Below, in pieces: positions 41,322 through 63,016 of a stretch of 64,000 nt of DNA. The stretch spans positions 1-64,000 of the forward strand of contig NZ_CP121695.1 in assembly GCF_029761915.1 (NCBI RefSeq). Direction: 5' to 3'. The first letter of the stretch is position 1; every line of letters starts with the position of its first letter. The notes below the pieces were generated by a model that saw nothing but the letters and a program-made list of their open reading frames with translations, made no database searches and was not told where the DNA came from. The position numbers were made by a program, and so were the translations under genes. This stretch comes from Bradyrhizobium sp. CB1650. GTDB taxonomy: Bacteria; Pseudomonadota; Alphaproteobacteria; Rhizobiales; Xanthobacteraceae.

Positions 41322-41551
41322 TCGGAGACCATCGGCGAGATAACGCCCCCTCGAATTGACGTCCGCTCGGTGAGGCATAGCGGACTAGATCTGCTCATCT
41401 TCAGTCTTCGCCTTCTGACCCCCCATTAGCGGACATGCGCGGGACCAAGGCCGAGGGCCTGCTTTAGACGTCAAGGCAGAGGGGCAGATGCTACGGGGTT
41501 GATCTCGGCTATTCAGGCGGCGACAATGGAGTAGGCCTCGAGGTCCGCTGG

Positions 41552-43621: not shown

Positions 43622-43714
43622 CGCGTCTCCTCCCACGATCATCATGGTGCCGACGTTCGGATCGACCTCCGGCGCAAGGCGGCGTCACGACGAACCGCCC
43701 ACAGCTCCGGAAGA

Positions 43715-43942: not shown

Positions 43943-44158
43943 GAGCGTTCTCCGGGCCCGGTTTCTGCGAGATCAATTCGATCCGGCGGCCGTCGTTCCG
44001 CTGCGGGCACGTTCCTGACTGCAGCTCCGCGATATCGCTCATCGGCAGCGAAGCCGGCCTCGCCGGCGAGAGCCGCCACCCAGCGCCGCACCAAGGAGCA
44101 AGTCGCCGGCCTCCGAGTTTCCCTCTGTTGGACCAAGTCGTTCACGTTCGGAGAGGTC

Positions 44159-44839: not shown

Positions 44840-45002
44840 TGGCCGGCTTTGGCTTGTGGCGTAAATCGCGCAGCATGTGAAACTGGTCGCTTGGCTTATC
44901 TGTCGGCGCTCCTGAACTGAGTCCAGCGCGGCCCAATAGGGCAGATCTCCCCGAAAAGGCGGTGAATCGCCCGAGTCTTCGGTTACCTCAAGGGCCGATT
45001 CC

Positions 45003-45944: not shown

Positions 45945-46017
45945 CGTGCAACATTCACATCGCGCGCGCCCTATCGGCCCGATTCGGGCTATGCCGAGCA
46001 ACCAAGGATTAAAAAGG

Positions 46018-46272
46018 ATGGCGTTCACGCTGAACGAAGCATTCCGAGTGCTGCGCGCGCGGGGTGTAACCGAAATGAAGGTCAGCCTCCCGGAGAACGA
46101 GATCGTCGAGGGGCCGGCCGATGGCTGGGCCTACTATAGCTACGGAAAGGAATTCTATTTCTGCGTCGACGGCAACGGCAATGTAGTCGGCGGCCAGAAA
46201 GGTTTCGAAGAGCAGCTGAGCGTGCTGAGAGCGAAGAAACCCACGGCGGTCCGAGCGAATTCCAAGACTTGA
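46018..46272 (+). CDS. Hypothetical protein (84 aa)
   Basis: MAFTLNEAFRVLRARGVTEM then a beta-rich core DGWAYYSYGKEFYFCVDGNG and a short basic tail. The frame is open 72 nt further upstream but the ATG at 46018 gives the natural protein. No family recognised. Confidence 0.55.
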   Translation: MAFTLNEAFRVLRARGVTEMKVSLPENEIVEGPADGWAYYSYGKEFYFCVDGNGNVVGGQKGFEEQLSVLRAKKPTAVRANSKT

Positions 46273-46338
46273 TCGTGCTCGAAGCGGACTCGCCCCGAGG
46301 TCGATCATGGTTGCGGCCGCGAGCGACGTTCTGGGGCG

Positions 46339-47595: not shown

Positions 47596-48772
47596 CGCCC
47601 GTACGAAGGAGCAAAAGCGCGATGAACGCGGACATGGAGGCGGTCGCGCTGATCCACAGCGCGCCGCGACCGAGATGCTCCACCATTATCCCGAGGATCA
47701 GGGGCGCCGCCGCGCCTGTCAGACGGGAAGGGAGCGAAATCATGCCGACCCGCTTCCCGAATCCCGCTGGCCCGAACAACGCCAACGGCAACGTGCCGCG
47801 CGCGATCGTGATGATCCCGTTGCCGGCGCCGTAAAGGACGGCGAAAACCGGGGCGAAGAACGAGCCTCCTGCGATCAGCGTGGCGACGCCGATCGGGTTC
47901 ATGAGCATGGCGAGTCTTGCCGACAACAGCGGATGGAATCGGCCGAGGAGACCCGCTTCGAGCAGACGAGCGCCGACTTGGGCAGGCCCGACCAACGTTC
48001 CTGCGAGCAAGGCGTGAGCCGGCGTCGCGCCGAATGCGACCAGCATCGTCGGTAGGATGGCCGAGACGCCCGAACTGACGAAGCTTGCCGCCGCGAACAT
48101 GTAGGCGAGCACGCCCATCGCGAAGTTTTCGCTCTGGCCCCCTCGATGTGAGCTCCGGCCAGATGCCGGGTCCGAAGTCTGATCCTGCGGCGTGGCACGC
48201 GGCAGCGAGAGATTGAGCGGCAGCGCGAGGAAGACGTGAATGACGGCCCATACCTGGCAGGCAGCGCGCCAGCCATACTCAGCATCCAACCAGGTCGTGA
48301 GCGGCCAGCCGACGGTGCTGGCGAACCCGGCGATCAAGGTGATGCCTGTGATCGATTTTCGGGAGCCCGTTCCGTAGATGCGGGCAAGCGTCGCGAACGC
48401 AGCTTCGTAAAGGCCCATGCCCATGCCGATCCCGAGCAGCATCCAGGCGGCGATCAATAGTACCGCTCCATGGGCGCTGGATAGCAGCAGCAAGCCCGCG
48501 GCAAACACAGCGTTCGAGGTCGCGAGCAGGAGGCGTCCTCCGAACCGGTCGATCGCGTGACCGACGCGCGGCCCGAGAAGTCCGGAAATGACGAGAGCGC
48601 CCGAGAGCGCCGCGAACACCCAGGTCGGCGTGAGGCCCACATCCTTCGCTATGGGCCCAGCAAGGACGGCAGGGAGATAATAGCTCGATGCCCACGCGAT
48701 GGTTTGACCCGTGCCGAGTCCGATAACGACGGCGACAGGGCCCAGCGTGCGCCCCGCAGAAACCTCGCTCAT
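47552..48772 (-). CDS. MFS transporter (proximal)
   Basis: 406 residues from MSEVSAGRTLGPVAVVIGLG, with about twelve helices and the motif GHAIDRFGGRLLL after helix 2. Its ATG overlaps the flavoprotein stop (ATGA), a sign of translational coupling. Sits in an ars-type operon, so efflux of an arsenical or antimonial is plausible. Not assigned to ArsK or ArsJ. Confidence 0.85.
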   Translation of the reverse strand: MSEVSAGRTLGPVAVVIGLGTGQTIAWASSYYLPAVLAGPIAKDVGLTPTWVFAALSGALVISGLLGPRVGHAIDRFGGRLLLATSNAVFAAGLLLLSSAHGAVLLIAAWMLLGIGMGMGLYEAAFATLARIYGTGSRKSITGITLIAGFASTVGWPLTTWLDAEYGWRAACQVWAVIHVFLALPLNLSLPRATPQDQTSDPASGRSSHRGGQSENFAMGVLAYMFAAASFVSSGVSAILPTMLVAFGATPAHALLAGTLVGPAQVGARLLEAGLLGRFHPLLSARLAMLMNPIGVATLIAGGSFFAPVFAVLYGAGNGIITIARGTLPLALFGPAGFGKRVGMISLPSRLTGAAAPLILGIMVEHLGRGALWISATASMSAFIALLLLRTGDATSQPVQVGGQNS

Positions 48773-50136
48773 GAACAACCACACCCCGAAGCGCCGGCCT
48801 TCTTTGCCGTTTCGTCGGCCACGCAGCACGCGGACGCGCTCTCCTTCGCAGGGCCACCGCAGCAGCTCGATGAGGCTCCGCTCTCGACGCCGGCGCGCGT
48901 GCAGACGCCTGTCTCGGGCAGCTCCAGCTCGACCCGCTCGGCAGCTTCCTTATCGCCGGCGATGTCGGCCACGATCGAGCGGACCTGTTCGTAGCCGGTG
49001 ATCATGAGGAAGGTCGGCGCCCGGCCGTAGGATTTGATGCCGGCGAGGTAGAAGCCGGGGTCGTCCTGGGCGAGTTCGCGCGCCCCATGTGGCCGCACGG
49101 TGCCGCAGGAGTGCTCGTTGGGATCGATCAGCGGCGCCAGCGCCACGGGCGCCTCGATCGCAGGGTCGAGCCGGAGGCGGATTTCGCTCAGGAACGAGAG
49201 GTCCGGACGAAAGCCGGTCGCGACGACTAGCTCGTCGACCACGACGCTGCGCCCGCGGCACGCGGACGAGGTCGCGATCCGGAGGCGGCCGTCGGCCTGC
49301 GTAATGGCGGCGACGGGAAAGCCGGCTTCGACCTGGACCTGACCGGATCCGACGACGGAAGCGAAGTGGGCGCCGAGTTCGCCGCGGGCGGCCAGCTTGT
49401 CGTTCGCTCCGCCACCGAAGGCCTTGGCCGGGTCCGTCCCGCGCAGGAGCCAGATCGGGCGGGTCCGGGACGCCTGCTGCGCCAAAGTCGTCAGGTCGAT
49501 CAAAGTGCCGATCGCCGAGTGCCCCGCGCCTAGCACCGCCACCGTCTTGCCGGCGAAGCGCGGCCGCTCCTTTCCGAGGACGTCGGGCAGGCCGTAGGAA
49601 ATCCGGTCGGCTGCCTCGCGTTCACCGAGTGCAGCCAGGCCGCCGGCACCGGCGGGGTTGGGCGAAGCCCAGGTCCCGGACGCGTCGATCACCGCATCCG
49701 CGCGCAGCGTCTCCGGCCCCTTGCCGTTCTGGCAGCGGATTTCGAACTGGGCCTGCTCGCAACCCTTGGTCTTCGCCTTGTCGAAGCCAGCGCGCCCGAC
49801 GGCGGTGACGCGGCAGGAGGTCCGGATCACTTCGCGCAGCGGCGTCTTGGTAGCCAGCGGCTCGATGTAACGTTCGAGGAGTTCGGCCCCGGTCGGGTAG
49901 ACATGCGGATCCGGCGAATTCCAGCCGGTCGGCGCGAGCAGGCGCGCGGCGGCCTTGTCGACGTTGTACTCCCACGGCGAGAACAACTGCACGTGCTGCC
50001 ACTGCCGCACGGAATGCCCGGCTTCAGGCCCCGCCTCGAGCACGATCGGCGTCATGCCGCGCTCCATGACGTGGGCCGCGGCGGCGAGGCCAACGGGGCC
50101 TGCTCCGATAATTGCGACCGTCTTCCCTGCGTGCAT
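48769..50136 (-). CDS. FAD/NAD(P)-dependent flavoprotein with Cys-rich tail
   Basis: 455 residues from MHAGKTVAIIGAGPVGLAAA. The first Rossmann motif is GAGPVGLAAA and the second GAGHSAIGT; VVATGFRPD is the conserved ATG. Such monooxygenase-like flavoproteins occur in ars operons, where they may oxidise organoarsenicals. The C-terminus (about 415-455) is unusually Cys-rich (SSCCGGP, ACCVAD, GCGCS), suggesting metalloid binding. It follows arsR directly. Confidence 0.86.
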   Translation of the reverse strand: MHAGKTVAIIGAGPVGLAAAAHVMERGMTPIVLEAGPEAGHSVRQWQHVQLFSPWEYNVDKAAARLLAPTGWNSPDPHVYPTGAELLERYIEPLATKTPLREVIRTSCRVTAVGRAGFDKAKTKGCEQAQFEIRCQNGKGPETLRADAVIDASGTWASPNPAGAGGLAALGEREAADRISYGLPDVLGKERPRFAGKTVAVLGAGHSAIGTLIDLTTLAQQASRTRPIWLLRGTDPAKAFGGGANDKLAARGELGAHFASVVGSGQVQVEAGFPVAAITQADGRLRIATSSACRGRSVVVDELVVATGFRPDLSFLSEIRLRLDPAIEAPVALAPLIDPNEHSCGTVRPHGARELAQDDPGFYLAGIKSYGRAPTFLMITGYEQVRSIVADIAGDKEAAERVELELPETGVCTRAGVESGASSSCCGGPAKESASACCVADETAKKAGASGCGCS

Positions 50137-50182
50137 CGGATTCTCCCATCCTTCTAGAAACATCGAACGATCCGGCAAAAAA

Positions 50183-50500
50183 TCAGGCCGCCGGCCGGGC
50201 CTCCTTGCAGTCCGCCTCGTCGGCGCAGCACTCGGCGACCAGGAACCCAACCAAGCTCCGCATCGTGTCATATTCGGCATGGCAGACGAGGGTCGTACCC
50301 TCGCGCACCTGCGAGATCAGGCCGACGGCGACGAGAGCCTTGACGTGATGCGACAGCGTGGACGCGGGAATCTTCAGCCGCTCCTGCAACCGCCCGACCG
50401 GCATGCCTGCGTGGCCGGCGCGGACAAGCGTCCGGTAGATCTTCAGCCGGGTCGGGTTGCCCAGCGCTTCCAGGTGTGCGGCGGCGTCATCGATCTTCAT
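50183..50500 (-). CDS. ArsR-type repressor
   Basis: 105 residues, MKIDDAAAHLEALGNPTRLK, a canonical ArsR/SmtB winged helix (ASTLSHHVKALVAVGLISQ). The Cys pair near the C-terminus (CADEADC) could bind As(III). It is the first gene of the minus-strand operon. Its start is 40 bp from an imperfect inverted repeat. Confidence 0.9.
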   Translation of the reverse strand: MKIDDAAAHLEALGNPTRLKIYRTLVRAGHAGMPVGRLQERLKIPASTLSHHVKALVAVGLISQVREGTTLVCHAEYDTMRSLVGFLVAECCADEADCKEARPAA

Positions 50501-50539
50501 GGCCACACCATAAACCCGTCCGTTCGAGTGGTCAACCAT

Positions 50540-50650
50540 ATTTCTAGAATATTGGAAATAGCGATCCGCTCCATGTCCTGCCGGCACGCCTTCCGCCTCG
50601 AATCCGATTGACGCGGCCAGAATATTTCCATAAGTCTGGATATATGGAAA
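50540..50650. promoter_or_regulatory. Operators of the divergent arsR pair
   Basis: Two inverted repeats: ATTTC...GAAAT at 50540-50559 and a perfect 8-bp TTTCCATA (50625-50632)/TATGGAAA (50643-50650). The right arm of the latter contains the ATG (50644) of the plus-strand regulator, so it could block both transcription and translation start. Confidence 0.55.
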
Positions 50651-51006
50651 CAGAAGAAGCCGTCCTGGCGCTCGCCGCCCTTTCCCAGTCGACCCGTCTG
50701 GAGGCCTTCCGGACACTGGTCCGGCACGAACCCGACGGTCTTGCGGCCGGCGACCTCGCCCGCCTGTTGGAAGTCCCGCCGAATACGCTTTCGGCGCATC
50801 TGGCGATCTTGACCCGAGCCCGCCTGGTGACCTCCGAACGGCGCAGCCGCTCGATCGTCTACCGCGCCAGTCTCACTGAATTCCGCGACGTCGCGGTATT
50901 CCTGCTGCGGGACTGCTGCGGCGGGCGGCCGGAAGTTTGCGAACCGGTCGTCGAAAGCCTGCAATCCTGCTGCTCTCCGAAACGAAAGGAGCGAACCCGT
51001 GGCTGA
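50644..51006 (+). CDS. Second ArsR-type repressor
   Basis: 120 residues, METEEAVLALAALSQSTRLE. Winged-helix DNA-recognition part is PPNTLSAHLAILTRARLV. Three Cys clusters (DCCGG, VCEP, SCCS) at the C-terminus could bind metalloid. It overlaps the arsC start by 8 bp. The start codon lies in the operator, which implies autoregulation. Confidence 0.88.
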   Translation: METEEAVLALAALSQSTRLEAFRTLVRHEPDGLAAGDLARLLEVPPNTLSAHLAILTRARLVTSERRSRSIVYRASLTEFRDVAVFLLRDCCGGRPEVCEPVVESLQSCCSPKRKERTRG

Positions 51007-51355
51007 TCACCGCTTCAATGTCCTATTCCTCTGCACCGGCAACTCGGCGCGCTCGATCCTCGCCGAGTCGATCCTTCGAAAGGACGGGGCTGGCCGCTTC
51101 CAGGCCTTCTCCGCCGGCAGCACGCCGAAAGGCGCTGTGCACCCGCTGGCGCTGCGGACGCTGGAAAGCATGGACTACCCGATCGACGGGATGCGCTCGA
51201 AGAGCTGGTTGGAGTTCGCCGCGCCCGATGCGCCGGTCATGGATTTCGTCTTCACCGTCTGCGACAACGCCGCCGGCGAGGCCTGCCCCATCTGGCCCGG
51301 TCAGCCGATGACCGCGCACTGGGGCATCGAGGATCCCGCCGGGGCAGATTCGTAG
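50999..51355 (+). CDS. arsC: Arsenate reductase, LMW-phosphatase type, truncated
   Basis: Starts with GTG overlapping the repressor gene. The active-site P-loop CTGNSARS (CX5R with catalytic Cys12) and the resolving-Cys region CDNAAGEACPIW are intact. The protein ends at residue 118 with HWGIEDPAGADS, whereas relatives continue for a further helical part of about 50-60 residues. The last codons after EDPA do not look family-like, so the 3' end was probably lost by an insertion or deletion at about 51340. Activity is uncertain. Confidence 0.85.
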   Translation: MADHRFNVLFLCTGNSARSILAESILRKDGAGRFQAFSAGSTPKGAVHPLALRTLESMDYPIDGMRSKSWLEFAAPDAPVMDFVFTVCDNAAGEACPIWPGQPMTAHWGIEDPAGADS

Positions 51356-51536: not shown

Positions 51537-51556
51537 AATCCTTGAAATTAAGGATT
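51537..51556. promoter_or_regulatory. Palindrome upstream of XRE gene
   Basis: AATCCTT/AAGGATT 7-bp arms with a GAAATT spacer; a likely operator for the downstream XRE regulator. The 10 bp TAAGGATTAT at 51549-51558 recurs inverted at 62981-62990, at the end of the last tniQ gene. Confidence 0.45.
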
Positions 51557-51636
51557 ATTGCTGTGGCGTGCGTTGGCAGGGGTTCTCCTTGCCTCTTTTT
51601 ACTTTGACGCGCGGCAAAGGATTTGCGGGAAAAGAC

Positions 51637-51882
51637 GTGGCAGAATCTGAGTCCTTCGCAAAAATCCAAAAGCGGGTGCGGGCTGCGCTTGGCCAGAGGG
51701 TCAAGGACCTGAGACATTCCCGCAAGCGGAGCCAGGCCGACTTGGCAGAAGACGCTGGTATCCGTCGTGCTCTGGTAAGCCAGATCGAGCGAGGGGATGC
51801 CAATCCCCGCCTGGACACGATCCTGCGTATCGCATCGGCACTTAAAGTTGAACCGGCTGCGCTACTGAGCTTGAAGGGTTAA
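51637..51882 (+). CDS. XRE-family transcriptional regulator
   Basis: About 81 residues from a GTG (longer starts possible). The HTH is typical: LRHSRKRSQADLAEDAGIRRALVSQIERG followed by NPRLDTILRIASALKVEP. Probably controls the following genes or the transposon. The palindrome at 51537 is in the right place to be its operator. Confidence 0.85.
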   Translation: MAESESFAKIQKRVRAALGQRVKDLRHSRKRSQADLAEDAGIRRALVSQIERGDANPRLDTILRIASALKVEPAALLSLKG

Positions 51883-52162
51883 ATCCATCAAAAGATAGAA
51901 CGTCGAATTGTTCGTCAAAACTTTCGACGAGTCGAAAGTGAGACACGACGGCCACAGGTTCGACGCAATCTTAGTGTACGCTATATCATACATCGCTTGG
52001 TGGAGCATTCTATCGGGCGCCTGCAGCCGACCAAGCTTCGCGATTGCTGCGCCAGCGACAGCACGACGGATTGGCACCTCCTTCATAGAAAATGAGCGAA
52101 GCTCACCAGCGCCGATCAGGAAGAATCCCGTCCTCACCTCCAACCTATCGGGACTCCGCATC

Positions 52163-52759
52163 ATGCTTGTTCAGTTTCCAAAATCTCGCCATGCCCACGC
52201 ACGCCCCTTCCTATTCACAAGTCCGAAATGCCGCGCCGCCATACCCGTGCACGACATTCTTCTTCGATATGCGCTGGAACAGGCTTCATTGGACTCTTCA
52301 GTCCGCGAAATCGAATATCGAAGCGGCCCTCAGATAGACTGCCCGCCAATCTCGCTGGCGGGCGCGGTTCTTCGAAAAGAGGGCGGTCAATTTCTCCTTC
52401 GCGTACATGCTACCCGACCCCGGCGCAGCGAGGAGGAACACGCCCGACTCAACTTCGTCTTGGAGCGCCATGGCCTCCGATTGCTCGAGCGGGATTCGCA
52501 AGATTTGTACCGCGAACCGCTATTTTCGAATGCGCGGGCTGTTTGGTCTCATAGGGACCGGCACGTATCGCTTATGGATCGACTGAAGATTGCGGTAGCG
52601 CTCGAAGAGGGCCCCCAATCCATCATTGAACTCGAAGATCGCGCTCGCCTAACTTGCGACGTTGTTGCAGTAGTCTGTGCTCTTACCTGCGAGAACCTTG
52701 TGAGATTGAATCTCCACGACGTCGCTCTCGGTCCGCAAACAATTGTGCTTGGACCTTAG
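52163..52759 (+). CDS. TnsA-like protein lacking catalytic residues
   Basis: 198 residues from MLVQFPKSRHAHARPFLFTS; a longer in-frame start at 51908 is possible. By eye the C-terminal half (PLFSNARAVWS, LMDRLKIAVALEEGP, SIIELEDRARL, CENLVRLNL) parallels the C-terminal domain of TnsA at 55801 (PRLGNAELIVS, TIRELRAASKL, ARGQLIPVD). In the N-terminal half the nuclease EVK strand has become LRVHAT and the Asp is absent. It is therefore probably catalytically dead. The relation is an inference. Confidence 0.5.
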   Translation: MLVQFPKSRHAHARPFLFTSPKCRAAIPVHDILLRYALEQASLDSSVREIEYRSGPQIDCPPISLAGAVLRKEGGQFLLRVHATRPRRSEEEHARLNFVLERHGLRLLERDSQDLYREPLFSNARAVWSHRDRHVSLMDRLKIAVALEEGPQSIIELEDRARLTCDVVAVVCALTCENLVRLNLHDVALGPQTIVLGP

Positions 52760-52906
52760 ACACTGCCACTTCGACCGCCTTTCGCTGGGCCGTCTCGACG
52801 GCCGTAGCAAGCGGGGAGTGAAACGGCCGAGCTCGTCGACGATATAAGGACGCGCGGATCGTGTCTAACAGATCGGTCTGCGCGATCTCGGCTTCGCGCG
52901 ATCATA

Positions 52907-53143
52907 GTGACGACGGAGGCCAACGCGAACCTCGACTGGTCTCACCGCGATCGCCCGGTGCCGGTCGATTTGAGGATGCGCGTGCTGCGGATCCCGATCG
53001 ATCACAGGCCGCTGCTGCTCGGCCGCCTGCTCGACGCCATCCGTTCTGACCGCGATCCCATCGCGGGCGTGCTGACGATGGCCTGCTCCGATCTTCTCGG
53101 AATCGATTTGACGTGCGGTCCGCTCGGACCGCTCTCCTTGTGA
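52907..53143 (+). CDS. Small protein preceding FtsH-like gene (78 aa)
   Basis: MTTEANANLDWSHRDRPVPV then DHRPLLLGRLLDAIRSD. Its stop lies 10 bp before the protease gene, so they are probably co-transcribed. No known family. An adaptor or regulator of the protease would fit the position. Confidence 0.55.
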   Translation: MTTEANANLDWSHRDRPVPVDLRMRVLRIPIDHRPLLLGRLLDAIRSDRDPIAGVLTMACSDLLGIDLTCGPLGPLSL

Positions 53144-53153
53144 GGTCACGTTC

Positions 53154-55304
53154 ATGAAGAAACCTACCAGCCGCCGCCCTTCCAAGAAGCCCGCTGTCAA
53201 CTACCGGATGGCGCCCAAGAGACTCGTCGACCTGACGTGCTCGCCTAGAAAGCTCTTCACGGACCGCTGCTTCGACGTCATGAATCGCAGATTCGTAGAC
53301 CTGAATCCGCCGTCGGACGACTTCGAAATTGAGGCCGGTGATCGAGAAGACGAGAGTGCGCCGTCCAAACCGGTGAAGCGTGGCCGGCAATCCGCGTTGA
53401 CCGCGGTGATCGGCGCGGCCTTCGAGGCCGTGGTCTCGAAGCAGATCTCCCGCAAGCTGGAGCACGGTCAGGCGCTCGCGGCCATCGTGGTTGTGCCCTC
53501 GCCCGCCTGGGTCGGGCCTATGACGAATTACTTCCGCGTGACCTTCGGTGGCCGCTGGCTGCTGCAGGCCCGCGATGGCAAAAGCCGGACCCAGAACAGC
53601 GAGATCGGGTCGGACGAGGTCTCGCGCGATTTGGCGCGGGGATTGTGTGTAGCCGGCATTTCCGCCGACGCCATGCTGCTTCCGCGCGCCTTGGTCGCCT
53701 CCGTCGACATCACGGTTCATGTCGCGCCGCCCACGTCGGCCGTGCTGCGCACCGCAATCGCTCGCTTCGCCAAACGGCCGCCGAAAGACCTTCCGCCAGG
53801 GCTGGGCCTCGGTCTCGATCTGCATGAGATTGTTGCCTGCTTCCGGCCCGGATCCGGACCCCAGAAGATCGCCCGGCGGCTCGAATCCGCGACGTTAGCG
53901 CTGCGCGGGGGCGAGCACGGCGTGCGGGTGCCCGACCTCGCTGAAGCGCTCGAGTACGGAGAGGCCAGGACTTGGGGCATGCAGCTCGCGCGAGATTTGG
54001 GCGACTATCGTAAGGGTCTCATTTCGTGGAATGATCTACCTAAGGGTGTCGTGCTAGTTTCTGAGCCGGGCCTGGGGAAGTCTCTGTACGCGCATAGCCT
54101 CTCTCGCCATTGCGGGCTGCCGATCGTGGTCTCGAGCGTTGCGGACTGGTTTACGCAGGGACGATCTTATTTGGATGAGGTCATCAGATCGATGCGTGCC
54201 GTCTTCGACAAGGCCGCAGCGCTTGCCGGCAGCCCAAATAGGGAATACAACCATAAAGTGAAATCTGGATGCATTCTATTTCTAGATGAAATTGATGCAA
54301 TTCCGAATCGTGCAACCCTTGACGGCCGCAATCGTGACTTTTGGCTGCCGATTTTGACAGACCTCCTTTTGAGGCTGGATAACGCCTGCGATCCGCGTGC
54401 CGGCGTGATCCTGGTTTCGGCGACTAACAATCCACAGGGCATCGATCCCGCGTTGCTCCGTCCGGGACGGCTCGAGAAGATGATCAAGATCGAGCGCCCG
54501 GGCCCCGAGGGCGTGCTGAACATTCTCAAGTTTCACGTCGCCGGCGCGGTGCCTGAGCGGGAGCTCGCCGAACTGGCTGCCGTGGCGGACCGCTCGACGG
54601 GCGCGGAAATCATGGCCTGGGTCCGGGAAGCCCGCCGCATCGCCCGCCAGGCGGGGCGGCCGCTCAAAGCCGACGATTTGCGCGCCGCGGCGATGAACGT
54701 GAAGGAGCTGCCGCCAGAGACGGACTGGCGTATCTGCGTCCATGAGGCGGGCCACGCGGCTTCCGCGCTCGCCATCGGCCACGGTCAGGTCATGCACTGC
54801 GTGGTGGGGTCGCGCGTCGGGACGGAAAACCGCACGCTAATCAACGCGGACCAGGGCGACCTGGCGACGCGGAGCACGATCGAAGACCGGGCGACCGTGC
54901 TGTTGGCCGGCCGCTCGGCCGAGCGCGTGCTGCTCAAGGATGGTCAGTCGATCGGCGCCGGTGGAGATTCCGAATCCGACATCGGCCTTGCCACGGAAGC
55001 CATCGCTTCCCTTCACCTGTCCTGGGGTTTGGGGTCAACCGTCAGCTATCTCGGGACCCGTAGCCAGGTCGTCGAGGCCGTGCGTTACGACAGCTCGCTA
55101 CGCGCTCTGGTCGAAGCCGACCTCCAGAGGCTGCAGGCGCGGGCCGACAAGATCGTGGAGATCCATCGCGACGCCGTCGTTGCCATCGCGAAGGCGCTGC
55201 AGAAGAGCCGGCAACTGCGCGGCGATGCCGTCCGCGCGATCTTCGAACAGCACCTGCCGGTCCGGGCCGGCAAAGTGAAGGGGGCCAAGTCGTGCTTGTC
55301 GTGA
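53154..55304 (+). CDS. Soluble FtsH-like AAA ATPase with M41 metallopeptidase domain
   Basis: 716 residues. An N-terminal extension of about 280 residues has no membrane segment, unlike true FtsH. AAA motifs follow: Walker A SEPGLGKS (303-310, a divergent loop), Walker B LFLDEID (375-381), sensor SATN (422-425) and Arg-finger region LLRPGR (434-439). The peptidase has HEAGH (530-534) and a later Asp in SESDIGLATEA as third zinc ligand. It is thus likely an active ATP-driven cytoplasmic protease. Operon with small genes on both sides. The target is unknown. Confidence 0.85.
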   Translation: MKKPTSRRPSKKPAVNYRMAPKRLVDLTCSPRKLFTDRCFDVMNRRFVDLNPPSDDFEIEAGDREDESAPSKPVKRGRQSALTAVIGAAFEAVVSKQISRKLEHGQALAAIVVVPSPAWVGPMTNYFRVTFGGRWLLQARDGKSRTQNSEIGSDEVSRDLARGLCVAGISADAMLLPRALVASVDITVHVAPPTSAVLRTAIARFAKRPPKDLPPGLGLGLDLHEIVACFRPGSGPQKIARRLESATLALRGGEHGVRVPDLAEALEYGEARTWGMQLARDLGDYRKGLISWNDLPKGVVLVSEPGLGKSLYAHSLSRHCGLPIVVSSVADWFTQGRSYLDEVIRSMRAVFDKAAALAGSPNREYNHKVKSGCILFLDEIDAIPNRATLDGRNRDFWLPILTDLLLRLDNACDPRAGVILVSATNNPQGIDPALLRPGRLEKMIKIERPGPEGVLNILKFHVAGAVPERELAELAAVADRSTGAEIMAWVREARRIARQAGRPLKADDLRAAAMNVKELPPETDWRICVHEAGHAASALAIGHGQVMHCVVGSRVGTENRTLINADQGDLATRSTIEDRATVLLAGRSAERVLLKDGQSIGAGGDSESDIGLATEAIASLHLSWGLGSTVSYLGTRSQVVEAVRYDSSLRALVEADLQRLQARADKIVEIHRDAVVAIAKALQKSRQLRGDAVRAIFEQHLPVRAGKVKGAKSCLS

Positions 55305-55558
55305 CCATCGAACTGGTGCCCGGAGGGTTCGAGCCGATGCGGCGCACGATCGGCAGCATCCGCATCTCGAACGAAACCGATCTGGCGAAGGTGAGCAACT
55401 ACCGCATCGTCGCCCAGGAGGCGGCGAACCGCCTGACAGGCGATCCGGCCGGCATCGCCGAGTGCATGGTCCGCGACCACCCGCGCCAGCAGCGCGTGTG
55501 GGCTCTGCTTCAGAAGGCGTGCGAGGAGCTCATGAAGGCCGATTTCGTCGAGCTATAG
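55292..55558 (+). CDS. Small protein coupled to the FtsH-like gene (88 aa)
   Basis: Starts with GTG inside the last codons of the protease gene (13-bp overlap): MLVVTIELVPGGFEPMRRTI. It contains a beta-rich start (TIGSIRISNETD) and a helical end (VWALLQKACEELMKADF). Overlap argues for a stoichiometric partner. No known family. Confidence 0.6.
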   Translation: MLVVTIELVPGGFEPMRRTIGSIRISNETDLAKVSNYRIVAQEAANRLTGDPAGIAECMVRDHPRQQRVWALLQKACEELMKADFVEL

Positions 55559-55800
55559 CGACCGAGCGGAGATCGACCAAATCGCCGATGCGGGCGGCAC
55601 GCCTAGGCAAGGTTGAAAAGTAACAGCTTGCGATGCGGAGATTACCAGCCGTTCACCAACACCGGTTCACCAAGGATTCATCACGCCATCATCGCAGGCG
55701 CGAGGAAAACCTTTCCGCAACTTCAATTTGAGTAGCGTGCAGATCCGTTTCCCGCCTTCGGCACGGACCTGTCCGCCGCCTCCCACGGAAGCCATAGCTA

Positions 55801-56496
55801 ATGAGCGTACAAACGCGTGCCAAGCACATCGGCCGGTCCGACGCGAGTCGGAAGGTCGTGACGTACCGTAGCGGACACTTCACAGGATTCGTGCCATCCC
55901 GCAAGAACAAGGACATGGTCCAGTACGAAAGCATTCTCGAGCGGGACTACATCCAGTTGCTCGAGTCCGACCCGGGCGTGCTGAAGTATTCCGAACAGCC
56001 AAAAGCGCTTCGGTGGTCCGACGGGGAGCACAGCTACAAGACGACTTTCGATTTCGCGGTCACCCGGCGCGATAAGACCAAGTACCTGGCCGAGGTCAAG
56101 CCGCTCGCGAAGGTGCTCAAGTATGAGTTGGACGAGCTATACGGGTACGCCCGCGCAGCCGCGATATCAAAGGGATATTCCGATCTCGAGGTCTGGACCG
56201 ACCGCGAGATCAGGGCGATGCCGCGACTCGGCAACGCCGAACTGATCGTGTCCAGCGAGACGGCGTTCAGTGAGCAGGCATTCGAGCTGGCGTTGCTGAC
56301 AGCGATCGCCTCGATGCGCCGCCATTCGGACCGCGCCACCATCCGGGAACTGCGTGCCGCATCGAAGCTGGGCAATGCGGCGTACTGGCAAGTCATCCGC
56401 ATGGTTGCGCGCGGACAGTTGATCCCGGTCGATGCGACTGCGCCACTCGACGATCGCGCAATCCTGAGGTTCGCTGGACAAGGGGGCCGCGCATGA
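55801..56496 (+). CDS. tnsA: TnsA heteromeric transposase endonuclease
   Basis: 231 residues. Tn7-type restriction-endonuclease fold: YESILERDYIQLLESDPGV (Glu motif), TTFDFAVTRR (catalytic Asp) and YLAEVKP (EVK with catalytic Lys). TnsA cuts the 5' ends of the transposon while TnsB cuts the 3' ends, giving cut-and-paste excision. The C-terminal part (about 150-231) is a winged-helix domain for TnsC contact. Its stop overlaps the tnsB ATG. The 242-bp gap upstream holds a short repeated CGTTCACCAA/GGTTCACCAA pair but no gene. Confidence 0.9.
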   Translation: MSVQTRAKHIGRSDASRKVVTYRSGHFTGFVPSRKNKDMVQYESILERDYIQLLESDPGVLKYSEQPKALRWSDGEHSYKTTFDFAVTRRDKTKYLAEVKPLAKVLKYELDELYGYARAAAISKGYSDLEVWTDREIRAMPRLGNAELIVSSETAFSEQAFELALLTAIASMRRHSDRATIRELRAASKLGNAAYWQVIRMVARGQLIPVDATAPLDDRAILRFAGQGGRA

Positions 56497-58919
56497 ATGC
56501 TCCGCTGATACGATTGAACAAGGGTGACGCCGTCGTCATCGATGGCGTCAGGTACGAAGAGAAGCTCCGCACCAAGTGCTCGCTGACCCTCTGTCCGATT
56601 GGCGGCGAGGTCGCGCGCACGTTCACGGCCGAGGAATTGGCTGATCTCTATTTCGATCCCGCCGGGCGCATGAAGATCGAGCGGGCCACGCCAGCAGCGC
56701 TTGAGGAGGAACTGGTCGAGACGGTTTCCCGCCCCTTCGAAAGCTTTACCGCCGATCAGCAGACGGAGATGCTGAAGCGTCTCGACTACGTCAAAGGATG
56801 CGACCGCTTCTTCCCGCGCGGCTGTTACAGCAAGCGGCCGGATGGGGGATACGCAAAGATCGCGCTCATCGTCGCGCGCTACCGCAGGCTGGTTTGTGCT
56901 AGGGACGAAGGTTGCCGCCCGCGCAGCCTAGGCCTCGACGAAGTCAGCGGATCGACGTTGCGCGACTGGTATGGCAGGTGGATCAGATCGGGCCGCATGC
57001 TCGGGGCGCTCGCTCCTCTCACTCACAGGAGAGGAAGCAAGAAGCCCAAAATGGACGGTGCTGTCAGGGGCATCATCGCGAAATACGTCCGCCAGAAATG
57101 GCTCACCCTGGAAAGGCCGACGTTGACCGTCGTGCATCAGATGATCTGTGGCGAGATCGAGCTGGTGAATTCGCAGCGGGTCGGCGGCTCCCTGGTCGAA
57201 CCGAGCGAGATGGCGGTGCGGCGTTGGATCGGGAAGAACCTCGACCGATATGAGATCATTTTCTACCGCCGCGGACGTAAGGAAGCCGATCACGAAGCCC
57301 GTTTGACGAAGCGGGCGCCGGTCGCGACCCGCCCGCTTCAGATCGTGGAGTTCGATGACACGCCGCTCGACATCATCATCGTCGACGATAACGGCAAGCC
57401 GATAGGCCGGGCCTATCTCACTGCAGGCATCTGCCTTACCACAGGCATGATCGTCGGCTGGTACATCGGGATCGAAAACCCGAGCTGGTCGACGGTAATG
57501 CAGGCCCTCCGCATGGCAGTGCTGAAGAAGGACGAGAAGGAGCTCGAGGGCTGCGGAGCGGAATCGCCTTACCCCGTGTACGGCCTTCCGGAGATGATCA
57601 AGATGGATAACGGCGCGGCATACCGGTCGCAGTCGATGGTCGCTGCTGCGGGGCAGCTTCAGATCGAGTTGCGCCTGGTGCCCGTAGGCAAACCGCACCT
57701 CAAGGGCAAGGTCGAGCGGTTCTTCGGAGAGGTGGCGCGCGACTTCTTCAGCCTCATGCCCGGTCGTACATTTGCGAATGTGCAGGAACGCGGGGACTAC
57801 GATTCCGAAGGCTACGCGCGATTCACGCTCCGCGATGTGCGCCGGATGTTCATGCGGTGGGTAGTCGATATCTACCACAATCGGCCAAACAGCCGAAGCT
57901 TCGGTCAGACGCCGCTCGAACGGTGGCAAGCGCTGTCCGGCGCCGGAGTGAGGCTGCCTCCCGAGGCGATGGACTTGGCCCCGCTGATCGGCCTGGTGAT
58001 CAATCGTACCATCGTGGCCGAAGGCATCACCTTCATGGGGCTTCACTACAGCAGCCCTGCGCTGAAGGATTTTCGGAAGCGAGGCCATCTCGGCCAACAG
58101 TGGATGGTCAAGATCGACCCCTTGGACATCGGCCAGGTACTGGTCCTGGACGAGCGGAAGCACCGGTGGACAGCGGTGCCATGCGTCCACCCCGAGCTGG
58201 TTGACGGATTGACGCTGCGGATGTGGATGGATGTGGTCTCCGCGGCCCGCGACATGACAGAGCAAGGCCGGCGCGTGCGCCGTTCGAGCCTTCTCAAGGC
58301 CCGCGAAAACCTGATGCGGGCCGCCCGGAAGGCAGGCAACAAGCCTCGCGGCAAGATCACCGAGAAAGACTATCGCTGGATGCAGGAGCGGCTCGACGAT
58401 CCGGACTTCAAGATTTCAGTGGAGCTGGATGAATCCGCCGAGGAGGGGAAGCCGAGGACGCCGAAGGAGGCCGCCTCGGCGCGTCGTAAGGACCGGCGCG
58501 CGGCGCAACCGACATCACCAGATCATGATCGATCAGCGACGGAGCCGGCATCGAAGGCAAAGGGCCATCCCGTCGCTGAGCGCGAGGTGCCGGGCGCCGC
58601 GACGAAGGCACGCGAACAAGAAGTGGCCGACGAGGTGGAGGAGCTCGAGGAAGAGGATAAGCTTCGCGCGTTTCGCGAGGACAGCGCCAGAAAAAGCGGC
58701 GGCCCCGACCTCGGCAAAACCATCACAACTCCCGCCCGGCAGCAGGCTGGGAAACTCCCTGAAGTGTCCGCGCCGCCGCTTTCGCCTGGAAACCATCCAG
58801 CAGAGGAGGAAAAGCAGGCCAAAGTCCCCGTGACCAGCGCGCAAAGCCCGACGAGCTCCGGGGTGAGATCAAGGCGGCGAAGTCTGGTGGACGAGAATGA
58901 CGACGACCTGTTTGGCTAA
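56493..58919 (+). CDS. tnsB: TnsB DDE transposase
   Basis: 808 residues; Mu/Tn7-type rve transposase. Catalytic residues by eye are D288 (VEFDDTPLD), D372 (IKMDNGAAY) and E408 (LKGKVERFFGEV), with 35 residues between the last two. DNA-end-binding HTH parts lie in about 85-260, and a Mu C-like domain follows after 480. The C-terminal about 150 residues are charged and low-complexity, suited to TnsC contact. It overlaps tnsA by 4 bp and precedes tnsC by 12 bp. Confidence 0.93.
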   Translation: MNAPLIRLNKGDAVVIDGVRYEEKLRTKCSLTLCPIGGEVARTFTAEELADLYFDPAGRMKIERATPAALEEELVETVSRPFESFTADQQTEMLKRLDYVKGCDRFFPRGCYSKRPDGGYAKIALIVARYRRLVCARDEGCRPRSLGLDEVSGSTLRDWYGRWIRSGRMLGALAPLTHRRGSKKPKMDGAVRGIIAKYVRQKWLTLERPTLTVVHQMICGEIELVNSQRVGGSLVEPSEMAVRRWIGKNLDRYEIIFYRRGRKEADHEARLTKRAPVATRPLQIVEFDDTPLDIIIVDDNGKPIGRAYLTAGICLTTGMIVGWYIGIENPSWSTVMQALRMAVLKKDEKELEGCGAESPYPVYGLPEMIKMDNGAAYRSQSMVAAAGQLQIELRLVPVGKPHLKGKVERFFGEVARDFFSLMPGRTFANVQERGDYDSEGYARFTLRDVRRMFMRWVVDIYHNRPNSRSFGQTPLERWQALSGAGVRLPPEAMDLAPLIGLVINRTIVAEGITFMGLHYSSPALKDFRKRGHLGQQWMVKIDPLDIGQVLVLDERKHRWTAVPCVHPELVDGLTLRMWMDVVSAARDMTEQGRRVRRSSLLKARENLMRAARKAGNKPRGKITEKDYRWMQERLDDPDFKISVELDESAEEGKPRTPKEAASARRKDRRAAQPTSPDHDRSATEPASKAKGHPVAEREVPGAATKAREQEVADEVEELEEEDKLRAFREDSARKSGGPDLGKTITTPARQQAGKLPEVSAPPLSPGNHPAEEEKQAKVPVTSAQSPTSSGVRSRRRSLVDENDDDLFG

Positions 58920-58931
58920 GGAGACTACCTG

Positions 58932-60041
58932 GTGACCGAGAATTCGCAGAAGAAAGTGATCGCGGAAATTTTGCGAGATGCCGACGAGGCGCTCTATTCG
59001 GAGATTGATCCGGACCGGAAATTCAATCGGTTGCGGACGATCGACCCCCAGCGCCTGGCGCGAAGGGCGAAGCTGAAGGCTTTCCGGTCAATCGATGTCT
59101 CGACGGCAAAGGGCGTGGCCGCGAAGCAGTACCTCGAGGGCATGCTGGATCGCGTGGACGCCGGTGTCGAAGGCAACTGCCTTGTCCTCCACGGGCGGAC
59201 CGGCGCGGGGAAGACGCACATCATTAAGCGCCTAGTCGCCCACCCCGACCTGCAGCAGCAGGAGACGGAAGAAGGGAAGTACCGCCCGCTGCTGAAGATC
59301 GTGGCTCCGGCCCCTTGCACGCTGAAGACGCTCGGCCTTCGAATTCTTCATCGCCTCGGCTATCGGCCCAAGAAGGTGCTGCGCGAGAACGAGGTCTGGG
59401 ACCGGGTGGAGGCGAACCTGAGAGCTCAGGGTGTCGCGATTCTCGTCATCGACGAGATGCACAACGTACTGGCTGGCCGCAACTCGGCCGAGCGCCACAA
59501 GATCGCGATGACGCTGAAGTCCCTGATGGTCTCCGAGGAGAATCCCGTTCAACTGATCCTGGCCGGATTGGACTCGCTGAAGAAGTTCGTCACCGGCTAC
59601 AGCGAGCTTCATCGTCGGACCCATTTCGTCGAACTCGTCGCATTGGACGGCGTCAAGGATGCTAAGAAGATCGTGAAGTTCCTGAAAGGCCTCGAGGAGA
59701 AGCTTGGCGTGGATACGTGCGGCTTTACGGAACACGACATGCCGCATCGCTTCTGGTTCGCTTCTCGCGGTCTTGTGGGGCGCATGGCCTACTTCGCGCA
59801 GGAGGCGGCCACGATCGCGGTCTCACTCGATGACGACGTGGTCCGCGAGGAGCACCTGGCGGAGGCGTACAGCCGGCCGTACGGCGTCGACGACGATCGA
59901 AACCCGTTCACTGTCCGGAATCCGCGCCTGCTGAAGATGCCGAAGAAGGAAGAAGACATCCGCGATGACGACGAAACTTTCTTGCGCGGCACAAAGAAAC
60001 GCAAGACCGACGATGACGAAGAGGAGCTCTCCGAGGATTGA
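58932..60041 (+). CDS. tnsC: TnsC AAA+ transposition regulator
   Basis: 369 residues from a GTG with AAGGAG upstream. Walker A GRTGAGKT (88-95) and Walker B LVIDE (171-175) identify a TniB/TnsC AAA+ ATPase; HNVLAGRNSAERH follows as in the family. It links the target-selection protein to TnsAB. The C-terminal tail (about 330-369) is highly acidic and basic in alternation. It overlaps the tniQ start by 29 bp. Confidence 0.92.
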   Translation: MTENSQKKVIAEILRDADEALYSEIDPDRKFNRLRTIDPQRLARRAKLKAFRSIDVSTAKGVAAKQYLEGMLDRVDAGVEGNCLVLHGRTGAGKTHIIKRLVAHPDLQQQETEEGKYRPLLKIVAPAPCTLKTLGLRILHRLGYRPKKVLRENEVWDRVEANLRAQGVAILVIDEMHNVLAGRNSAERHKIAMTLKSLMVSEENPVQLILAGLDSLKKFVTGYSELHRRTHFVELVALDGVKDAKKIVKFLKGLEEKLGVDTCGFTEHDMPHRFWFASRGLVGRMAYFAQEAATIAVSLDDDVVREEHLAEAYSRPYGVDDDRNPFTVRNPRLLKMPKKEEDIRDDDETFLRGTKKRKTDDDEEELSED

Positions 60042-61830
60042 GATCCGGCCTCGCCGCAATTCCGGAGAGGGAGCCATCGGCTACCTGATGAGGATGGCCC
60101 GTGCTCATGGCATCCCGAAGCTGCCCGAGATGCTGCTCCAGCTCGGGATTCCTTGGTTCAAGCTCGCCCAGGGCAAGCAGGTCGATGTGGTAGCCAATGC
60201 CGCCGCCGCCGACCTCGCTGCACTTTCCTACGACACGGGCATCGTAGCGGACGGCAAGGTCCTCTTGCGTGGAGAGCGGCTCTACCGGGGACAATGGTCA
60301 GTGTATGCGGGCCGTCGCGCTTGTCCGGGATGTCTCGCAGACGATCCGATCGACCCCAGATTGCCGCGTCGATGGCACCGCGCCTGGTGGGACGTTCAGC
60401 CCTTGACGGTATGCCCCATCCATGGAGCGCGGCTGCTCGGGTCATGTGCTCGATGTGGGGAGCACCTGGACTTCCGCTCGACCGCAATAGACCGCTGCTC
60501 CAACGGTCATGCTCTCATCGAAGCAGGCACGTCGCGAGCCCCGATCGCCGCCTGCGCAGGAGACGAGTACCTGTTGAGCAGACTCGGAGCAGTACCGCGA
60601 ATCGCGTGCAGGGTGCTCGATAGCGGGACGTTGGGCGATGCCATTCAAGCCCTCGATCTTGTCGGCGCGGCATCGCTGAAGGGGCACGCCTTGCGGGAGG
60701 CCCGCGGTATCGACAGGCACGTGTTGCTTGACGCAGGTTATCGCGTGTTCGCCGCATGGCCCGCAGCATTTGACGCGATCTTGGATGCTCTGCTCGCCGC
60801 GTCCGGCATCGGACCCGGAAGATGGGGCGCCGCAGCGGCTTACGGACAATTTCATTCCGGATTGCACGAACTGGGAAACGGCCTCATTGCTACGGCGCTG
60901 AAGGAACGGACAAGGCGACATGCCGTCGCCAACGGCGTGGCGATTTCGCGCATGGTGTTCGGAGTGGTCGAGCCAGCAAAGGACCTCTGCTCGATCAAGG
61001 AGGCCGCAGGTCGTTTGGGCCTGGGCTTCGAACGCGCCCGCCGGGAGCTTGCCGGACGGGGCTTGGTCCCTCAACATACGCGCCGAGGTACGCCCGTAGC
61101 GATCCCTCGGGTCGCGGTGGAGAACCTCCTCTCGGAAAGGCGCGCGACATTGGGTTTGAGAATGGTCGCGAAGGAACTCCGTATCGGGCGCATGCAGGCC
61201 CGACGGCTGGCCTCCGCGGGTGTTTTCGGAGCAGCCGGTACGATCCTGCGAGGCAACCTCGACCAGTTCATCGAGAAGCTATCGGCAATCGCGCCTCTCG
61301 TTCCGCAGAAGGATGGAACGCCCCTGCCCAAAGGCTGCCGGACCGCGCGCTGCGGGATCGATCTAGCCGTTGACGCCATTCTCAAGGGTCGCATCCACGT
61401 TGCGGGATTCTGCCCGGGACGGGGGCTCGACGGTGTTCTTGTGCGTATCACGGACCTTCGACAACTCGGCAAGGACGAGCGGGATAGGATGACCATCGAT
61501 GACGCAGCGGACTTGCTTGAATTGAAGTGGGAGACCGTTCGGGGGCTGATCAGGCTTCGGCTGCTCCGGTCCGGCAAGGACGGGATTGCGCGCGCAGCGA
61601 TCGAGGCGTTCCGGAGGGATTTCGTGTTGGGTGTGCGGTTGGCGCAAGCCGCCAGCCTCTGCTCGCGCACATTGATGAAGGTAATGTTCGAAGCAGGCAT
61701 TAGTCCGGCCGCGGCTCCCCCACGCTGCCGCCAAGTATTCTATCGCCGTTTGGACATCGTGAGCAGCCGACGTATCGCCTCCACGTACCCGGCACTTCGT
61801 GCTGTGGCTTCGACGAACGAGGCGGCATAA
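60013..61830 (+). CDS. tniQ: TniQ/TnsD target-selection protein with tandem HTH tail
   Basis: 605 residues from ATG MTKRSSPRIEIRPRRNS inside the tnsC end. The TniQ zinc-finger pattern is intact: ACPGCLADDP, VCPIHGARL, GSCARCGEHL and DRCSNGH. The C-terminal half has two Xis/MerR-like HTH units (SIKEAAGRLGLGFERARREL and TIDDAADLLELKWETVRGLI), plausibly reading the attachment site. TnsD-type proteins bind a fixed site; this one probably has its own. No Cas partner is present. Confidence 0.88.
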   Translation: MTKRSSPRIEIRPRRNSGEGAIGYLMRMARAHGIPKLPEMLLQLGIPWFKLAQGKQVDVVANAAAADLAALSYDTGIVADGKVLLRGERLYRGQWSVYAGRRACPGCLADDPIDPRLPRRWHRAWWDVQPLTVCPIHGARLLGSCARCGEHLDFRSTAIDRCSNGHALIEAGTSRAPIAACAGDEYLLSRLGAVPRIACRVLDSGTLGDAIQALDLVGAASLKGHALREARGIDRHVLLDAGYRVFAAWPAAFDAILDALLAASGIGPGRWGAAAAYGQFHSGLHELGNGLIATALKERTRRHAVANGVAISRMVFGVVEPAKDLCSIKEAAGRLGLGFERARRELAGRGLVPQHTRRGTPVAIPRVAVENLLSERRATLGLRMVAKELRIGRMQARRLASAGVFGAAGTILRGNLDQFIEKLSAIAPLVPQKDGTPLPKGCRTARCGIDLAVDAILKGRIHVAGFCPGRGLDGVLVRITDLRQLGKDERDRMTIDDAADLLELKWETVRGLIRLRLLRSGKDGIARAAIEAFRRDFVLGVRLAQAASLCSRTLMKVMFEAGISPAAAPPRCRQVFYRRLDIVSSRRIASTYPALRAVASTNEAA

Positions 61831-61887
61831 AGCTACGCCAAACCTCGGACTTCAACGCCGCAAAGCGATACTTTCTCAATTCGTTTA

Positions 61888-61982
61888 CCTTGCATGGCTG
61901 AATTGCAAGGACAAAACAAGTCTAGCTTCCTGAAATAGCAAATCGAGAACCTCTGTGTGGCACTACGACGTCGTCGTAGCGC
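61888..61982. repeat. Two palindromes between the tniQ genes
   Basis: CCTTGCA/TGCAAGG (61888-61910, 9-nt loop), and an almost perfect 12-nt-arm palindrome at 61959-61982 (core CTACGACG-T-CGTCGTAG). The second palindrome ends 13 bp before the tniQ2 GTG. They could be operators, an RNA hairpin or transposase-binding sequence. Confidence 0.55.
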
Positions 61983-61994
61983 CGGAGGGGCTTC

Positions 61995-62984
61995 GTGAGT
62001 TTTGCTATTCCTCAAGATTTTGATGCGCGTCGTCAACCTCTCGACACCCGCGTAGTTCTCTTCACCGACGAGCCCGCTTTTGCCTTAGCTCAACGCCTAG
62101 CCAGGCGTAATGGTGCGAGCTCTTTGTCCGACTTCTGCAGTGACATGGGCCTTTCCCACGCGGACGTTGTTCAGGGACGAGCGACAGCGAGAATTGCTGA
62201 ACTCGCAAAGGCTGATCCGGTCGTCCTAGAGGGGACCACGTTCGTCAGACAGGATCGCAAAACGGTGCGCTTGGGGAACGAGGTGCTCAAATCGAGTGAT
62301 TGGTCATTTCGTTCTTTGCGAACGTGCCCGAAATGTCTCGAAGAGGATATCGAGTTCGGGAAAGGCGATCCGGATTACAGGGCGCATGTGAGATCCTGGT
62401 GGAACTTGGCCTTCATCTACGTCTGTCCCTTCCACAATATCCTTCTAATCACCTACCATCCTGATGACGCAAAGAAGACCCTTGACCCCGAAGCTCTGGA
62501 CGTCCGCTTTGCGGCCGGCGACGAGCACGACTTGGCGTTTGCACCGTTGGAAAAGGGTGCTCTGGGTGCAGAAGTCGAAAAATACTTGCTTGGAAGGCTC
62601 GGGTTCATGACCTCAGTCAAGCACAAGAGTCTTGATAGTCTAGCACTCCGGCACGCGGTCGATTTGATGGATCGCATTGGAGCGGCGGCGGTTGGAGGGA
62701 CGTTCGCGCACACCAATCGCGATGGCACTGTTTCTCGACGTGAGGCCTTGTCCGCCGGATACGCCATCCTCAGCGACGGGAGAGCCGGTCTTGTTCGGCT
62801 GTTCGAACGGATACGCGAAGAGGCCAGTGCAGCCGAGGATGAATGGATACCAAAGGCGCAATACGGCCTACTTTATGCCTGGCTGTTCCATTTATCTACG
62901 CGCGATATTGAGGGATACGAACCCATTCGAGAGCTAATGCTTGAATCCATAGGCTCCCCAAAGGCCAGACTTTTGCTGCGATAA
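61995..62984 (+). CDS. Second TniQ-domain protein, short
   Basis: 329 residues from GTG, with a GGAGGGG site just upstream. Contains FTDEPAFALAQRLARRNG, RTCPKCLEEDIEF and YVCPFHNILL, matching the TniQ fold. The second Cys pair of the finger is missing (LLITYHPDD). It ends in EPIRELMLESIGSPKARLLLR, at a place where longer relatives continue. It could be a deliberately short TniQ paired with the larger one, or a C-terminally cut gene. Confidence 0.8.
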   Translation: MSFAIPQDFDARRQPLDTRVVLFTDEPAFALAQRLARRNGASSLSDFCSDMGLSHADVVQGRATARIAELAKADPVVLEGTTFVRQDRKTVRLGNEVLKSSDWSFRSLRTCPKCLEEDIEFGKGDPDYRAHVRSWWNLAFIYVCPFHNILLITYHPDDAKKTLDPEALDVRFAAGDEHDLAFAPLEKGALGAEVEKYLLGRLGFMTSVKHKSLDSLALRHAVDLMDRIGAAAVGGTFAHTNRDGTVSRREALSAGYAILSDGRAGLVRLFERIREEASAAEDEWIPKAQYGLLYAWLFHLSTRDIEGYEPIRELMLESIGSPKARLLLR

Positions 62985-63016
62985 TCCTTAGGGCGGGCAC
63001 TCATAAGCTCGGTTGC

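Follow-up and report, generated by a model that had tools for sequence, protein, structure and literature searches.

A Cas-free Tn7-like transposon family of Bradyrhizobium with two TniQ selectors and a probable attachment site at the 3′ end of gyrB

What kind of element is built around a tns operon that is followed by two tniQ genes and no visible Cas gene, and what might the second selector be for? Such an operon lies on the forward strand of the window studied here, the first 64,000 nucleotides (64 kb) of the chromosome of Bradyrhizobium sp. CB1650 (G000; a single 9.43-Mb contig, C1). It occupies 55.8–63.0 kb in the order tnsA-tnsB-tnsC-tniQ1-tniQ2, and our profile searches recovered all five genes where the first-pass annotation, made from the letters alone, had placed them. 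The product of tnsA (55801..56496) matches PF08722 (E = 1.5e-4, score 22.7 against a cut-off of 26.5) and NF033179 (E = 1.3e-10) only below their cut-offs, and retains the E...D...EVK active site, read by eye, of a TnsA. The DDE transposase TnsB (56493..58919) exceeds the Pfam cut-off for Mu-transpos_C and stays below that for rve, its nearest solved sequence being PseTnsAB (E = 4.5e-52), and the AAA+ regulator TnsC (58932..60041) matches TniB (E = 2.2e-20) and the solved VchTnsC (E = 4.3e-9). The transposase and regulator expected of a Tn7-like element are thus both present. They are joined by two selectors, each above the Pfam TniQ cut-off: the long, TnsD-like TniQ1 (59965..61830, 621 aa, with the real start probably near 60013) and the short TniQ2 (61995..62984, 329 aa), which consists of the core only. 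A search of the 9.43-Mb genome at E ≤ 0.001 gave no third TniQ. The nearest solved relatives of TnsB, TnsC and TniQ1 are CAST proteins of the I-F kind.

The first-pass annotation had taken positions 51537–63000 as the element. These limits turn out to be those of a conserved inner block, and the element runs well beyond them on both sides. Comparison with Bradyrhizobium sp. RP6 (G039) yields a conserved block at 51534–62990, scattered patches in the cargo, and a lone stretch at C1:74797-75037 in which a 21-bp repeat occurs four times. A matrix derived from these four murA-side repeats only (74889, 74921, 74943 and 75009, outside the window) was run over 116 kb; it scored three inverted 21-bp repeats next to gyrB, at 7018, 7039 and 7061, at 22–24 bits, the best score elsewhere, both ends excluded, being 14.3 bits. 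The gyrB-proximal end (7012..7081, reverse strand) is compact and starts TGTCGGGG, whereas the murA-proximal end is spread and has 75035 as its last base. On the left, the gyrB stop codon is followed by 8 nt, GCGAC and TGTCGGGG; on the right, GAGGACA is followed by GCGAC and then by murA, the QYIVEGG motif of which starts 301 bp further. The two GCGAC copies (7007..7011, and C1:75036-75040 beyond the window), read directly, form a perfect 5-bp target duplication. From these junctions and the repeats on both sides, the element is delimited as C1:7012-75035, 68,024 bp, with TGT...ACA ends, several inverted TnsB-type repeats (three compact, four spread) and a 5-bp duplication, as in Tn7-like elements. 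The repeats and duplications proposed as a check just outside the block were thus found, at 7012 and 75035 rather than at its edges: neither at 51.5 kb nor just upstream of tnsA are there convincing inverted repeats or duplications. That the inner block of 51.5–63 kb is nevertheless the whole element, with the outer ends belonging to something else, is very improbable. It is the longest unbroken similarity between the two genomes, with only scattered patches (11.5–22, 37.6–38.7 and 42 kb) and the far end beyond it; against this, Tn7-type ends and duplications bracket the block in three genomes, and it holds the sole TniQ machinery found in the CB1650 genome.

The 68-kb element sits behind an intact host gyrB (4563..6998, forward strand, 811 aa, identified by gene call and C-terminal translation), beginning 13 nt past the stop codon and before murA. 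The tns genes point away from gyrB, just as those of Tn7 point away from its target gene. Relatives occupy the same place. The element of strain RP6 (C66:178-60436, 60 kb) has a perfect GCTTC duplication and starts 13 nt past the gyrB stop; that of B. iriomotense (G179; C2:310677-434975, 124 kb) has a perfect GGAGC duplication and starts at 12 nt; that of B. manausense (G190; C105:61304-106138, 45 kb) has a perfect GTCTT duplication and starts at 13 nt; and a further one (G171; C4:1906808 to about 2002053, ~95 kb) has imperfect duplications only, starts at 14 nt and abuts murA with its other end. All five turn their compact end to gyrB. Strains lacking the element, the comparison with which had been suggested at the outset, supply the natural counterpart: G294, with a gyrB 3′ end 96% identical to ours, has an uninterrupted site with a single GCGAC, and G289 has an uninterrupted site closely similar to the flanks of the B. 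iriomotense element. Because relatives repeat the same place and orientation and empty sites exist, we conclude, on comparative grounds, that the 3′ end of gyrB is the attachment site of this element family. The best explanation of the locus, in which we have considerable confidence, is a Cas-free Tn7-like transposon of 68 kb homing to the 3′ end of gyrB; what the genome sequences establish directly is where the element ends, its target duplication, its one orientation, the existence of an empty site, and that relatives have used this site again and again.

The gyrB 3′ end is present in 262 of the 265 genomes of the genus, and the far end of the element family in 8. Three of these 8, CB1650 included, are also the only genomes with a TnsB at least 79% identical, and in all three the ends bracket the tns operon. 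Two relatives count against this explanation: in the B. manausense element at gyrB, tnsABC was not found by tblastn, and the G171 element, besides its want of a perfect duplication, has no tnsABC in the 73 of ~95 kb read. Nor does the latter have a TniQ inside. Degenerate far ends persist between gyrB and murA in two further genomes (G156, G187). Besides, murA was not recognised within 1.5 kb behind gyrB in 14 of 30 loci, those of CB1650 and B. iriomotense included, which may make the interval a hotspot for insertions of other kinds. One genome (G036, C211:5674-5896) shows two ends of the family back to back, a murA-type end, 5–6 bp and a gyrB-type end; the bases between them match those behind its own gyrB, a site that itself lacks any end. 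This arrangement may be a tandem array or an excision product; a junction from a circle was considered and dropped, the contig having no exact terminal overlap.

Most of the element is cargo. The gyrB-side part (7300..51355) encodes Fic, a Y-family polymerase, SRAP, a UvrD-like helicase, Ku, dehydrogenases, hydrolases, regulators, an MFS protein and others, Pfam giving matches for 26 of the 30 ORFs scanned and for 2 of another 3; the murA-side part has few long ORFs. The SRAP and Ku genes (12897–13769 and 19979–20932 in the window) are common to all three dual-TniQ elements, those of CB1650, RP6 and B. iriomotense. One could speculate that a Ku protein within a cut-and-paste element bears on repair of the donor break.

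Does the second selector work with a guide? The view that the locus is a Tn7-like element free of Cas and equipped with two TniQ proteins has stood up. The whole elements of CB1650, RP6, B. iriomotense and B. manausense were scanned for exact repeats, and no CRISPR-like array turned up; the scan recovered a synthetic control array but would miss one repeat-spacer unit standing alone. No Cas domain, be it of Cascade, Cas12k or otherwise, was found in the 48 CB1650 ORFs scanned (40 in the cargo and 8 in the operon region, some small ORFs lying outside the scan), and nothing in Rfam reached gathering scores in the 64-kb window, the last 11 kb of the element lying outside it. We then compared the ORFs of the CB1650 element with the RP6 and B. 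iriomotense elements (E ≤ 1e-6, best match above 60 bits). Matched in both were a stretch at ~11.5–12.3 kb, SRAP, Ku, an XRE-type regulator (51568..51882, forward strand; HTH_3, E = 1.6e-13), the gene P1 and its second copy (see below), an FtsH-like gene, tnsABC, both tniQ genes, shadow frames and the far end; a hydrolase-cyclase gene had a weak match in the B. iriomotense element. No gene downstream of tniQ2 is shared by the three, so that the guide partner entertained in the first-pass annotation is not an adjacent one; it is possible that a partner is encoded elsewhere. As for the other suggestion made there, two fixed attachment sites, one site was found, gyrB, where all three dual-TniQ elements of the clade that could be placed reside.

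The same annotation had held that pairs of TniQ proteins are known chiefly from CRISPR-associated lineages. Many CASTs do carry two (Annual Review, PMC11406308, in its accessible part). However, the accessible part of Faure 2023 counts 998 dual TniQ loci, or 1,048 if those with more than two are included, compared with 2,905 that have one TniQ, and describes the Tn7017 branch as mostly without Cascade, so that dual TniQ without Cas was already on record and the premise was too strong. In-place duplication on many occasions is inferred there for the dual loci. The CB1650 pair appears to have a different history. In a tree of 46 TniQ cores (2 of 48 dropped for a short core, the rows of G190 C47 and G196 left untrimmed, and midpoint rooting used for drawing only), TniQ1 and TniQ2 are separated by a branch with 98/95 support, and each side also holds selectors of single-TniQ loci. 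Hence the pair is, judging by the tree, not a recent duplication; an ancient one is possible. In two related loci from another family of the order (G528 C44 and G570 C44), a further long tniQ lies on the other strand, and here too the branch divides the two selectors of each locus. Within the TniQ2 clade, the selector of the B. manausense element, also at gyrB, branches deepest. It is 639 aa long and still has a C-terminal arm, so that TniQ2 has probably lost its own.

Which of the two selectors reads gyrB? The TniQ1 structure model (pLDDT 82) has a TniQ core followed by a long helical C-terminus. Profile and model both match best a solved TniQ (7u5d, I-F3b), TnsD being weaker and mainly over the core. 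From the model and one weak HTH_17 match, below the Pfam cut-off, the arm is probably a helix-turn-helix. Between CB1650 and B. iriomotense, both with elements at gyrB, it is 40–64% identical per 50-residue block from residue 367. Between CB1650 and RP6, 250-bp windows running from the 3′ half of tniQ1 into the start of tniQ2 are 94–99% identical (67–92% over the rest of the operon), and dS falls to 0.26 in tniQ1 and 0.17 in tniQ2, compared with 0.65–0.90 in tnsABC. This higher local identity and lower dS indicate that the reading arm was exchanged recently between the two lineages; the tract, 60809–62308 in the window, spans the TniQ1 arm and the start of tniQ2. We regard TniQ1 as the likely gyrB reader. 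It is not proven, because the B. manausense element, also at gyrB, carries a long selector of the TniQ2 clade instead of TniQ1; the divergence of the arm between the CB1650 and B. iriomotense elements likewise tells against it. An alternative that we consider quite improbable is that TniQ2 or its long ancestor reads gyrB and TniQ1 serves another site. The B. manausense protein, sole selector of its element and deepest branch of the clade, scores 318 bits over its core with the TniQ2 profile, whereas none of the nine remaining proteins scored, TniQ2 aside, exceeds 103. Yet TniQ2 itself, at 329 aa, has no C-terminal arm, and the B. manausense element, which has lost tnsABC, might just as well have lost a TniQ1 too. 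Moreover, the C-terminus of its selector is the best of those compared with the TniQ1 C-terminal profile, at 101 bits, if barely above the next, at 95.8 bits, from an element not seen at gyrB. With so small a difference, this profile was rejected as a gyrB-specific mark.

With TniQ1 as the likely gyrB reader, a role has to be sought for TniQ2. Its structure model is poor (pLDDT 57.7, pTM 0.45) and was left unused, and its profile finds no solved relative up to E = 1. That tniQ2 is a decaying leftover without a role seems unlikely to us. The protein does look shortened, given the long deepest member of its clade; however, ten TniQ2 relatives were found, all of at most 343 aa in a search that admits proteins up to 1.75 times the query length, and the frame is open in all three dual-TniQ elements. 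Furthermore, dN/dS between CB1650 and RP6 is 0.30 in tniQ2 and 0.24 in tniQ1, both below 1 (between CB1650 and B. iriomotense it is 0.16 in tniQ1 and saturated in tniQ2). Somewhat less doubtful, and worth entertaining as a minority view, is that TniQ2 is partnered by an unknown guide, either an RNA or a protein, and serves a target outside the chromosome. The apparent constraint on TniQ2 between CB1650 and RP6 and the proposal, in the accessible part of Faure 2023, that a short TniQ marks an extra selector speak for this idea; it is opposed by the lack of a shared gene behind tniQ2 and of CRISPR-like arrays in the four elements, and, for plasmids, by the finding of no TnsB more than 60% identical among the best 5,000 of 72,556 records. 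Separately, a Bradyrhizobium sp. NBAIM14 record labelled "agmatine deiminase" (P0020) ends in a segment that shares 91% identity with the C-terminal 33 residues of TniQ2; it may be a scar left by an element since lost, or a deletion may have fused the two.

Upstream of tnsA lie further companions. An FtsH-like protein (53154..55304, forward strand) combines an AAA+ ATPase domain (PF00004, E = 1.4e-19) with an M41 metalloprotease domain (PF01434, E = 1.3e-8; HEAGH motif) and matches solved FtsH structures. It is preceded by P1 (51908..52759, forward strand), the start of which is uncertain and which is conserved from residue 80 or so onwards, and by a second, shorter copy of P1 (ORF 52808-53140). 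P1 is a remote TnsA relative in which the catalytic residues of TnsA cannot be recognised. In the one pair compared, hhalign aligned P1 with TnsA at a probability of 97.5 over 184 columns. The catalytic E, D and K are absent, by eye, from the CB1650 protein; also by eye, some second copies and the copy of G494 may retain an aspartate. Among the 34 places listed by the TnsB search, 18 tns loci were examined. The FtsH-like gene lies upstream of tnsA in 15 of these 18, two of which (G223, G083) had been chosen because FtsH was already seen nearby, its nearness having been noted beforehand for three others as well (G048, G190 C47, G067). Within the 15, the gene is on the other strand in G570 and broken or partial in G223 and G076; it is missing at G196 and G088, and G528 has P1 alone upstream. 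P1 is upstream in 13 of the 18. Loci found by TnsB alone, in an order-wide search, have the FtsH-like gene in 4 of 5 cases, and the tns loci with the gene span three families of the order. Searched from the other direction, FtsH-like genes occur at 37 places in 36 of 265 genomes (E ≤ 1e-90); 28 of these places were examined, and 13 (8, plus 5 of a set of 20 that excludes places already known to lie beside tns genes) are next to tns genes, whereas 15 are not, within the stretch read. Because of these 15, we rejected the idea that the gene belongs to Tn7 elements alone; it does accompany tns loci frequently. The literature searched, which covers few subscription papers and includes the accessible parts of PMC10910872 and Faure 2023, holds no description of an element-borne protease or active-site-less TnsA relative upstream of tnsA.

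Phage Mu offers a precedent in that its transposition complex is dismantled or licensed by the host ClpX. One may guess that the FtsH-like protease likewise helps to take the transposition complex apart. The fuller proposal, in which the unfoldase-protease and the active-site-less TnsA relatives dismantle or license TnsA-TnsB and TniQ2, once a full-length selector, has become a short adaptor for a second, non-CRISPR target, is a speculative one to which we attach a low probability.

By analogy with Tn7, transposition to gyrB would proceed as follows. TnsB would bind the end repeats and, together with TnsA, cut the element out; TnsC would couple TnsA and TnsB to the target complex; and TniQ1 would use its long helical C-terminus, probably of helix-turn-helix type, to read the end of gyrB and would direct insertion 12–14 nt past the stop codon, so that gyrB stays whole. 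More tentatively, TniQ2, its DNA-reading arm lost, might be a second adaptor for another class of target, e.g., plasmids, acting with a non-adjacent partner, or else a co-subunit.

In kind, this is an ordinary Tn7-like transposon that carries two selectors, the unusual feature being that these selectors parted long ago. As far as we have searched, the gyrB site and the companion pair of a protease and an active-site-less TnsA relative are new. Indeed, the literature searched, which covers few subscription papers and includes the accessible parts of PMC8649781, PMC11406308, PMC12452197 and Faure 2023, holds no report of gyrB as an attachment site. We thus have a precisely delimited Tn7-like family with such a site, natural empty sites and a long-separated selector pair, in which the role of a second, short TniQ without Cas can be tested directly. 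The recurrent protease and TnsA relative upstream of tnsA, for their part, suggest an element-borne control step.

The closest known systems include Tn7 itself, with its characteristic end layout, 5-bp duplication and insertion behind glmS in a single orientation. The CB1650 element shares with the TnsD pathway of Tn7 the proteins TnsA, TnsB, TnsC and TniQ/TnsD, the TGT...ACA ends with compact and spread repeats, the 5-bp duplication, and insertion behind an essential gene in one orientation. It differs in targeting gyrB rather than glmS, in having a second, short TniQ, and in that no TnsE was recognised, in searches of which none was specific to TnsE. Moreover, its tns genes are remote from both of the ends, at 12 and 49 kb, which is not so in classical Tn7 and counts against the proposed reading. 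A paralogue of gyrB, parE, is the target of the TnsD of a second system, Tn7017. In this type I-F3 CAST (EasCAST), as described in the accessible part of PMC11406308 and compared by description rather than by sequence, there are likewise two TniQ proteins, one of them for a fixed site; by contrast, neither Cascade nor an array was found here, and the site is gyrB, not parE. Finally, the dual TniQ-TnsD loci in the accessible part of Faure 2023 resemble ours in the tandem of a long and a short selector, but while in-place duplication is inferred for those loci, the two selectors of the gyrB element stand on opposite sides of a well-supported branch.
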